Assembly (NCBI RefSeq): GCF_036017915.1 | Contig: NZ_CP107929.1 | Location: 4,964,001-5,028,000 of the forward strand | Origin: Micromonospora sp. NBC_00421 | GTDB lineage: Bacteria; Actinomycetota; Actinomycetes; Mycobacteriales; Micromonosporaceae | Direction of reading: 5' to 3' | Length of the DNA stretch: 64,000 nucleotides | Shown here: in pieces, positions 9,631-51,572 of the stretch | How positions within the stretch are numbered: the first letter of the stretch is position 1 | How the letters are laid out: every line of letters begins with the position of its first letter | Translations under genes and position numbers: made by a program | The notes under the pieces: model-generated | What the model saw: only the letters and a program-made list of their open reading frames with translations | The model's database searches: none | Told to the model about the DNA's origin: nothing

Positions 9631-10107
9631 TCAGCGGGCGCCGGCCTCGCGGGCCGGATGGAGCCGGCCGGCCCGTTCCTGTTCGGCGTGCTCGTCGGTG
9701 CCGATCTTGTCGTACAGGCCGGTGGCGAGCAGCAGCAGCCCGAACAGCAGCGAGACGATCACCGTCGACATCGAGAAGTTGAGGACGTTGGCGCGGGTCT
9801 GGAGCACGCTCATCATGGCGATGCCGGTGACCATGAAGACCACCCCGGCGGTGAGGTTCATGACGTGACCGAGGTTGCCGCGCCGGGACGCCCCGACGAT
9901 CAGGACGACCCCGAAGGCCACCGAGACCAACGAGAACGCCAGGTTGGTACGCAGGCCCAGGGCCCAGTGGCTGCCCCTGTCGAACAGTGGTTCGCCCCAG
10001 GTCTGCACGACGCCGAGTGCGCCGAAGACCAGGATGTAGAGCCCGACGAGCCCGGCGAAGACCCGGTACAGCGGGCGGGCCGGGTGGTTGACCGGAAAGT
10101 GCGCCAT
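9631..10107 (-). CDS. DUF4383 membrane protein, copy 1
   Basis: 158 aa, start ATG 10107 with GGAGG 5 bases upstream. Four hydrophobic spans are visible (about 17-36, 52-72, 80-100 and 108-128), and the conserved N-terminal HPARPLYR motif identifies the actinobacterial DUF4383 family. The C-terminal tail is polar (GTDEHAEQERAGRLHPAREA). No function is known. A paralogue lies directly upstream at 10215-10670 in the same direction with the same opening sequence, indicating tandem duplication. Confidence 0.88.
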   Translation of the reverse strand: MAHFPVNHPARPLYRVFAGLVGLYILVFGALGVVQTWGEPLFDRGSHWALGLRTNLAFSLVSVAFGVVLIVGASRRGNLGHVMNLTAGVVFMVTGIAMMSVLQTRANVLNFSMSTVIVSLLFGLLLLATGLYDKIGTDEHAEQERAGRLHPAREAGAR

Positions 10108-50131: not shown

Positions 50132-50494
50132 ATGGCAACCGTTGAGCTGACCACGGCCAACTTCGACGAGGTGACCGGAAGCAGCGGCATCGTGCTGGTC
50201 GACTTCTGGGCCGAGTGGTGCGGCCCGTGCAAGCGGTTCGCCCCGGTCTACGAGCGATCGTCGGAGAAGCACCCGGAGATCACCTTCGGCAAGGTCGACA
50301 CCGAGGCCCAGCAGGAGCTCGGCGCCAAGTTCGACATCCGCTCGATCCCGACGATCATGGCGGTCCGGGACGGTGTCATCGTCTTCGCCCAGCCCGGCGC
50401 CCTGCCCGAGTCGGCCCTGGAGAACCTGATCGAGCAGGTCCAGGCCCTCGACATGGACGACGTACGCAAGCAGCTGGCCAACCACCAGCACTGA
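50132..50494 (+). CDS. trxA: Thioredoxin
   Basis: Small cytoplasmic thiol-disulfide reductase. 120 aa, ATG 50132. Active site WCGPC (in VDFWAEWCGPCKRF, about 31-35), cis-Pro in RSIPTIMAVRDG. Its length fits a single-domain thioredoxin. A perfect SigR-type promoter upstream suggests induction by disulfide stress. No thioredoxin reductase gene is adjacent; a terminator hairpin follows. Confidence 0.97.
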   Translation: MATVELTTANFDEVTGSSGIVLVDFWAEWCGPCKRFAPVYERSSEKHPEITFGKVDTEAQQELGAKFDIRSIPTIMAVRDGVIVFAQPGALPESALENLIEQVQALDMDDVRKQLANHQH

Positions 50495-50535: not shown

Positions 50536-50554
50536 TCGCGCACTTGCACCGCAA

Positions 50555-50570
50555 TCGCACACGTGTTCGA
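50555..50570 (+). promoter_or_regulatory. LexA (SOS) box and candidate promoter
   Basis: TCGCAC-ACGT-GTTCGA matches the actinobacterial LexA operator TCGAAC-N4-GTTCGA at 11 of 12 arm positions. A TTGCAC at 50544-50549 lies 17 bases upstream of TCGAAT (50567-50572), which is 7 bases before ATG 50580. The box therefore overlaps the predicted promoter of the small ORF that follows. Confidence 0.55.
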
Positions 50571-50579
50571 ATGAGCGGC

Positions 50580-50747
50580 ATGCGCTGGAAGCGCCTCTCC
50601 GCTCCCCCGGACGAGGCGCATCCCGACCGGGCAGCGCCAGCGACGCCACCCCTGCCGCTGGCGCTGCCCGGGGCGGGCCCGGCGACACCCGCAGCCTGCC
50701 GGCTCCGTCACCCGCACCCCGCTCCCGGACAACTCGCCCTGCTGTGA
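50580..50747 (+). CDS. Possible small SOS-regulated protein with C-terminal QLALL
   Basis: 55-codon frame starting at ATG 50580 (or ATG 50571, three residues longer). It begins MRWKRLSAPPDEA and has a Pro/Ala-rich low-complexity middle. It ends PAPGQLALL, where QLALL resembles the bacterial sliding-clamp-binding pentapeptide (QL[S/D]LF type; MutS has QMSLL). No Shine-Dalgarno sequence is visible; with a LexA box and promoter directly upstream it would be leaderless. Coding status is unproven, and only sequence position and ending support it. Confidence 0.4.
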   Translation: MRWKRLSAPPDEAHPDRAAPATPPLPLALPGAGPATPAACRLRHPHPAPGQLALL

Positions 50748-50884: not shown

Positions 50885-51307
50885 ATGCGGACCGCACAGC
50901 AACTCCTCGCCGACTCCGCCGTGATCGCCGTCGTGGGCGCGTCCCGCGACCCGGGCAAGGCCGCGCACCGGGTACCGGCGCAGATGCAGCGGTACGGCTG
51001 GCGGATCATCCCGGTCAACCCGACTGTGGACGAGTTGTTCGGTGAGCGGGCGTACGCCTCGCTTGCCGACATCCCGCACCCGGTGGACCTGGTGGACGTC
51101 TTCCGGCCGGCCCGGGACGCGATCGAGGTGGTGCGTCAGGCGGCGGCGATCGGCGCCCCGGCGGTCTGGCTCCAGCTCGGCATCGTCTCGCCGGAGGCAC
51201 GGCGGATCGCCGAGGAGGCCGGCATGGACTACGTCGAGGACCGGTGCCTGATCGTCGAACGGGCCGCCGCCGGCCTCACCCGGCTCGACCCGGAGCAGCG
51301 CGGCTGA
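50885..51307 (+). CDS. CoA-binding domain protein (YccU family)
   Basis: 140 aa, ATG 50885. Rossmann-like CoA-binding domain: AVVGASRDPGKAAHRVPAQM (about 17-36), RIIPVNPTVDELFGERAYAS, VDLVDVFRPARDAIEV, APAVWLQLGIVSPEARRIAE. Small family of unknown function related to the succinyl-CoA synthetase CoA-binding fold. TAGGCT lies 6 bases before the ATG, so a leaderless mRNA is likely. Confidence 0.9.
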   Translation: MRTAQQLLADSAVIAVVGASRDPGKAAHRVPAQMQRYGWRIIPVNPTVDELFGERAYASLADIPHPVDLVDVFRPARDAIEVVRQAAAIGAPAVWLQLGIVSPEARRIAEEAGMDYVEDRCLIVERAAAGLTRLDPEQRG

Positions 51308-51308
51308 G

Positions 51309-51425
51309 ACCAGCTCGGCTTGACCAGCTCGGCTTGACCACCTCGACCGGGACCAGCTCGGCTTGACCAGCGCGACCGGGACCAGCTCGGCTTGACCAGC
51401 GCGACCGAGACCACCTCGACCGAGG
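51309..51425. repeat. Imperfect 14-15-bp tandem repeats (ACCAGCTCGGCTTG)
   Basis: About eight units of 14-15 bases between 51309 and 51425, alternating ACCAGCTCGGCTTG (four copies) with variants such as ACCAGCGCGACCGGG and ACCACCTCGACCGGG. They begin immediately after the stop of the CoA-binding gene. Part of the 265-base gap before the DUF4190 gene; otherwise nothing is seen. Confidence 0.8.
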
Positions 51426-51572
51426 CCGGCGCGGGTTCGGCTGCATCAGCCTTCGGGGCGTCCCGGCCTACCCGCCAAGGTGACCAGTCCCCTCAACCAC
51501 GGTGAAAGGTGCACCGTTGCCGGTAGCGTCCGCCGGAGGAAGGGCACTGACCTGCGGCGGAGGGTGGACACC

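Follow-up and report, generated by a model that had tools for sequence, protein, structure and literature searches.

Rv2578c and PA0069 are large radical-SAM families that have no assigned substrate and are named only after a locus tag. In a study of Streptomyces venezuelae, LexA ChIP gives a peak at the gene of the radical SAM protein vnz_31145, which belongs to the LexA regulon, carries an SOS box at -61 and rises about 20-fold with mitomycin C (PMC9380542). A Streptomyces gene of the Rv2578c family has also been described as the attachment site of phage Samy; that 2026 paper gives an rmsd of over 4 A between the protein and Bacillus subtilis SplB, and presents its link to DNA repair as speculative (PMC12924846). 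SplB-like genes have been placed within the SOS networks of other phyla in two papers (PMC8565304, PMC3765255), and a third reports that in some archaea an SplB-like gene adjoins nreB, which encodes a protein with a possible PCNA-binding motif (PMC4929162). The terms Rv2578, splB and photoproduct are all absent from the text of PMC8151990. In open-licence PubMed Central we found no paper that joins a radical SAM protein to a clamp-binding motif or that describes a clamp tail in the Rv2578c family. Clamp-binding tails of the QL[S/D]LF type occur on repair proteins and polymerases, for example MutS and ImuB. It is likely that vnz_31145 is SVEN_6313, the S. venezuelae member of the Rv2578c family in the Samy paper.

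The locus considered here lies in the window, that is, the whole stretch of 64,000 nucleotides of Micromonospora sp. NBC_00421 DNA that was analysed. From the sequence, an initial annotation had singled out an SOS-type operator, promoter hexamers with a 17-bp spacing and a 55-codon ORF ending in PAPGQLALL, and each of these was recovered in place. The features of the locus, with the ORF read as the probable remnant of a longer gene, are as follows.

50132-50494, + strand: thioredoxin-like gene (trxA in the initial annotation), the upstream neighbour; function assigned by resemblance
50544-50549, + strand: -35-like TTGCAC of the ancestral promoter
50555-50570, + strand: LexA-type operator, TCGCACACGTGTTCGA, matching 11 of 12 arm positions
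50567-50572, + strand: -10-like TCGAAT, overlapping the box
50580-50667, + strand: surviving 5' coding piece, MRWKRL...PLALP, 86% identical over residues 1-36 to P0001, the closest intact relative
50668-50675, + strand: deletion junction at an imperfect 8-bp repeat, CCGG[A/G]GCG, where 880 bp present in two close relatives (L286, L289) have been lost
50676-50744, + strand: surviving 3' coding piece, read out of the ancestral frame up to about 50716 and back in it from there (PGQLALL)
50730-50744, + strand: QLALL, the clamp-binding-like C-terminal motif of the ancestral protein, so read from the family statistics below and from P0001, which ends PAPEQLALL
50885-51307, + strand: downstream neighbour of 140 aa, which also adjoins the decayed alleles of genomes G010 and G479

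The operator differs from TCGAAC-N4-GTTCGA at a single arm position, and the two hexamers are separated by 17 bp. The 55-codon frame opens at ATG 50580, seven bases downstream of the -10-like hexamer, and its stop occupies 50745-50747. Transcription from this promoter would probably give a leaderless message. TTG 50544 and ATG 50571 are alternative starts in the same frame, but ATG 50580 is the likelier one because in the full-length family the NF038135 profile opens with the MRW that follows this third start. If one mismatch to the SOS consensus is allowed, the window has two sites in all, 50555-50570 and 9980-9995. The latter, TCGAACAGTGGTTCGC, has one mismatch and lies within long ORFs, away from any start, and on that position it was set aside as a second SOS site. 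Relatives of the thioredoxin-like neighbour were present in all 61 genomes searched, and the 140-aa neighbour is presumably CoA-binding-like. By eye, near-identical short direct repeats (ACCAGCTCGGCTTG... units) fill intergenic DNA at 51307-51430, 3' of the 140-aa ORF.

The small ORF had been proposed as a DNA-damage-induced peptide, and in its place we find the internal-deletion remnant of a radical-SAM gene of about 350 codons. Our analysis makes it very probable that a chromosomal Rv2578c-family gene (NF038135), under a LexA-type operator in its intact parent form, has decayed into this ORF. When a 58-aa form of the ORF was searched against 61 genomes, its first ~36 residues were matched in 36, all of them Micromonospora, and among the matches listed it aligned to the start of frames of ~300 codons or longer, except for the window's own frame and a 95-aa frame in G010. 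Once translated, the relatives proved to be Rv2578c-family radical-SAM proteins with the same beginning and with EQLALL, EQLTLL or EQLSLL as their ending. The closest intact one, P0001 of genome G036, scores 519.3 bits against NF038135 over residues 4-326 (cut-off 430), has a Pfam Radical_SAM domain and carries the cluster motif CxxxCxxC as GCTHACVYC, a motif that is deleted from the window allele. The 58-aa ORF itself matched no NCBIfam or Pfam family, and we therefore regard it as the remnant of an NF038135 member and not as a member.

Compared with genomes G036 and G011, exactly 880 bp are absent between two copies of CCGG[A/G]GCG, which in both genomes stand at distances of 113 and 993 from the box. 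As 880 leaves a remainder of 1 on division by 3, the deletion shifts the frame, and one extra base near 50716, seen against L286 and L289, returns PGQLALL to the ancestral frame. At E up to 10, the window genome yielded no second copy of the gene. The sequence thus shows an 880-bp deletion at the imperfect short repeat that took out the catalytic core; the box and promoter survive, with ~36 codons from the start of the gene and ~20 from its end, and the extra base mends the frame of the tail. LexA may still govern transcription of the remnant, which cannot carry out the parent's chemistry.

The operator, the promoter and the C-terminal ending had been put forward as three independent cues. All three are real, but independent they are not, as box, promoter, N-terminus and tail belong to one ancestral gene. 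Neither are they a product of chance: in 41 of 46 Micromonospora loci a box of the pattern TCG.AC-N4-GTTCGA stands just 5' of the same N-terminal start (two of the 41 matching rows being the same gene), TCGAAT is present in all 41, and in 40 the distance between TTGC and the box is unchanged. Of the five loci that miss the pattern, four are decayed alleles. The parent promoter can be written TTGCRC-N17-TCGAAT, overlapped by the LexA-type box.

To follow the operator and the tail beyond the genus, we assembled 210 loci. When 396 Actinomycetota genomes were searched with NF038135 at E up to 1e-40, 142 gave a match, 52 of them above the cut-off; the ~145 matches were reduced to 130 loci, the remainder being mostly fragments or the weakest matches. 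The other 80, referred to as named loci, are the best 80 of at least 589 confirmed stretches from a scan with a diverse alignment. Four loci with less than 200 bp of upstream DNA were excluded from the box counts, which leaves 206. The best upstream site departs from the SOS consensus at no more than one position in 86 of these, at no more than two of 12 in 143 and at no more than three in 177, against 0.1, 2.8 and 25.9 expected from shuffles that permute non-overlapping dinucleotides and are thus an approximation. At two mismatches, the box was present in 36 of 51 and 53 of 57 loci of two groups, in 4 of 20 loci of a distant group (L172-L191) and in 50 of 78 named loci. With one locus per cluster the count is 43 of 64, and at a stricter threshold, which leaves very divergent clusters, it is 6 of 23. 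Judged from operator sequence, actinobacterial members near the family are as a rule predicted to be under LexA-type control; the distant ones, to which this consensus may not apply, are not. The window's own site is an actinobacterial LexA-type operator by sequence, by its position in the promoter and by its conservation in relatives.

The tail could be read in 209 proteins, comprising 129 closed frames from the 130 loci (one has an open end) and all 80 named loci; 206 are distinct by their last 200 residues. As the motif we accepted Q-x-x-[LMI]-[FLIMV] or Q-[LM]-x-[LM] near the C-terminus. The first form, Q..[LMI][FLIMV], lies within the last 12 residues of 98 of the 129 first-set frames (shuffle mean 1.1, maximum 5), and either form in 110. 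For the whole family, 176 of 209 proteins carry the motif in their last 12 residues compared with 0 of 370 other ORFs, and 185 carry it in their last 30 compared with 5; this background consists of stop-to-stop frames of at least 150 aa from the same loci and the window, some of which will not be genes. Chance occurrence of the motif was rejected on the comparison in the last 12 residues and on the shuffle maximum. When one protein is taken per cluster, 51 of 65 have the motif, and 18 of 23 at the stricter threshold. The motif is absent from the last 12 residues of 33 tails and from the last 30 of 24, of which 17 end LF-like (e.g., APTLF); four proteins (L147, L155, L163 and L190) have no trace of it. 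Among named-scan proteins the tail reads PEQLSLAV in Rokubacteria, PEQLTLLN in Chloroflexota, RQLALL in Armatimonadota, VQLTLSLF in Alicyclobacillus and PQLPLLF in a polyangial MAG. The M. tuberculosis homologue, tied to the family by its name in NCBIfam, presumably ends in QATLF. An alignment of 22 proteins shows no variation at the Gln and Leu of the tail, and the linker that precedes them is the least conserved part. The family tail is conserved beyond near neighbours and has the form of a candidate sliding-clamp-client motif.

PA0069-type relatives have a similar ending. In plasmid records, PA0069-type proteins of all five proteobacteria examined end in such a tail (Azospirillum QLTMF, Methylobacterium QYSLF, Sinorhizobium QLSLL, Paracoccus QLSLF and Aeromonas QLRLF), and with a Gemmatirosa relative that ends QLSLGI and an Acetoanaerobium one whose QLSFF misses the pattern, 6 of 7 match. 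The Sinorhizobium protein scores 584 bits against the PA0069 model (cut-off 360); the assignment to this family is by record name for Paracoccus and by similarity for the remaining relatives. By comparison, 0 of 10 radical-SAM frames of other groups (Runella, Paenibacillus, Nostoc, the B protein of a mobile pair and six haloarchaeal frames) have the motif in the last 12 residues, and 2 of 10, both haloarchaeal, have it further in, within the last 30. A search for a PIP-like (PCNA) tail in archaeal relatives, made through haloarchaeal plasmids, led to genes of other radical-SAM groups, several of them beside tcmP. Related radical-SAM genes on haloarchaeal and Nostoc plasmids (L282, L284 and L280) adjoin tcmP, encoding a three-Cys-motif partner, and lack the C-terminal motif. 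On a conjugative Runella plasmid (L278), the radical-SAM gene is flanked by a HipA-domain gene and a UvrD-helicase gene.

A hydrophobic peptide at the extreme C-terminus could also serve as a degradation signal, or as an element for folding or for binding a partner, and we consider these roles unlikely for the family tail. The invariant Gln three residues before the invariant Leu (22/22), together with the adjoining L or F, suits the clamp consensus better than a degradation signal, and in some groups (for example L110, L111, L119, L129 and L131) up to about 25 residues follow the motif, which would deprive a degradation signal of its free end. The structural model, in which the tail has no structure, also speaks against these roles. 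The preferred reading of the tail is that it likely binds the clamp, a prediction from sequence conservation.

The parent is a protein of ~350 aa that closes with a disordered linker and a Q-L-x-L-L/F-type tail. The AlphaFold2 model of P0001 has a mean pLDDT of 83, with residues 1-29 and 328-351 below 50, and the window allele therefore retains little beyond two disordered ends. The best PDB matches of the model are to spore photoproduct lyase (E 4e-9, TM 0.57-0.59, rmsd 4.6, 16% identity), ranked before SkfB and lipoyl synthase, and the nearest PDB sequences to P0001 are also spore photoproduct lyase, weakly. The spore photoproduct lyase model TIGR04070 (cut-off 400) was not among the P0001 matches at E 0.001, and other relatives reach at most 29 bits. 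We favour a role for the parent in repairing DNA lesions, with somewhat less assurance than its binding to the clamp. In the mechanism that we propose, DNA damage would inactivate LexA and the parent enzyme would be translated from a message with little or no leader; its tail would dock it on the sliding clamp (DnaN), and docking would deliver the photoproduct-lyase-like radical-SAM domain to lesions located at the fork or behind it. The parent is probably an SOS-induced, clamp-tethered repair enzyme, of which we infer the clamp binding and the repair.

Decay of this gene is not confined to the window. Among 160 Micromonospora genomes, P0001 found matches in 151: contiguous over essentially the whole protein in 86, with the best match starting at residue 86 in 58, and partial in 7 (G000, G010, G479, G498, G516, G531 and G561). 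Residue 86 is the site of an intein in 11 such genes that we translated (L036, L038, L039, L042, L045, L046, L047, L048, L049, L051 and L054), where the intein lies directly before the third cysteine of CxxxCxxC; the intein form of the Rv2578c family has its own NCBIfam model, NF038136. The remaining 9 genomes gave no P0001 match. At the DNA level, the box and 5' piece are matched strongly in G453, G480 and G526 and marginally in four more, and two have no match. In sum, 16 of the 160 genomes have a broken, reduced or missing match. The broken alleles take many forms. Residue ~49 is joined to ~263 in G479, ~56 to ~274 in G498 and 33 to 182 in G516, and the frame changes in all three; in G531 an early frameshift accompanies a join of ~34 to ~269; G526 reads on and its tail is missing; the N-terminus is eroded in G453 and G480; and the frame changes near residue 183 in G561, which may be a sequencing error in a draft of 530 contigs. 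By eye, the left ends of several lie at codons 33-36. Of the broken alleles read (the window's, G010 and eight more), the window's alone has both ends in one frame, the others being mostly frame-shifted. As the decayed alleles read differ from each other, the window fragment looks decayed and not selected, and the pattern in the genus, as far as these sequences tell, looks like the repeated loss of a dispensable gene.

Most likely the remnant has no function. Against decay, its promoter and box are undecayed and the frame of QLALL is restored, as selection for the tail would also give; the chance of this is about 1 in 3, and the restored frame is therefore not evidence by itself. A rival reading makes the fused ends a functional SOS-induced micropeptide, which during damage would act as a short decoy on the clamp and so slow replication or keep other clients off. 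The intact operator and promoter would suit such a product, as would a tail motif in frame despite two frame-changing events and retained pieces that are the parent's disordered ends. We nonetheless find it very improbable, as the same fused piece is absent among the matches listed from the 160 Micromonospora genomes, where the window's own was the sole box-to-tail run-through DNA match, and as other decayed alleles retain different pieces, mostly out of frame. By eye, three window-specific changes before the junction, at codons shared with G036 and G011, also all alter the amino acid, with 0 silent. Equally hard to credit is that the leftover LexA promoter is kept as the driver of the downstream gene at 50885-51307: promoter and box are intact and the same gene lies 3' of the decayed piece in G000, G010 and G479, but 135 bp and a stop codon intervene. 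Least probable of all is a deletion that arose in assembly or culture from an intact gene, which would fit its presence in one genome only, but the window genome is a single contig and 100% complete, the remnant differs from its relatives by substitutions of its own and by an extra base, and independent broken alleles occur in other genomes.

The window locus itself is thus best described as an ordinary decayed gene of a known family, and what may matter is the parent family to which it leads. What the initial annotation had in view, a LexA-type operator on a probably leaderless promoter together with a clamp-like tail in one DNA-damage-linked gene, stands for that parent; in relatives the box is kept and so is the ending, within a full-length protein, but the small frame is not. 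For the parent family there is good support, as a prediction, for its step from box and ending to an SOS role at the replication clamp. The LexA-type box in most actinobacterial members and the clamp-like tail across several phyla tie the two families to DNA repair at the replication clamp. For the broader proposal, that the Rv2578c and PA0069 families of actinobacteria, proteobacteria, Chloroflexota and others are clamp-tethered, radical-based direct-reversal DNA-repair enzymes, with the actinobacterial ones in the core LexA regulon, we see the prospects as evenly balanced. If it is true, the families gain a function, and clamp clients gain a class for which we found no description. Repeated loss within one genus supplies natural null strains.

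Compared with known systems, the locus is closest to NF038135 (the Rv2578c family), the source of its operator, promoter, N-terminus and C-terminus, found in the same kind of place; the difference is that the window allele is without the radical-SAM core. The PA0069 family (NF033668) is a sister by profile score, and the proteobacterial members examined share the clamp-like ending, but a curated cut-off keeps it separate from Rv2578c, and in the distant group L172-L191 the actinobacterial LexA-type box is rare (4 of 20). Spore photoproduct lyase (SplB, TIGR04070; PDB 4fhc and others), a radical-SAM DNA-repair enzyme, offers the nearest solved fold to the parent, although at ~16% identity and a TM below 0.6. 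The tails of MutS and ImuB resemble that of the family in being a short C-terminal Q-x-x-L-L/F peptide behind a disordered linker; here, in contrast, the tail is attached to a radical-SAM enzyme, and its binding to the clamp is putative.
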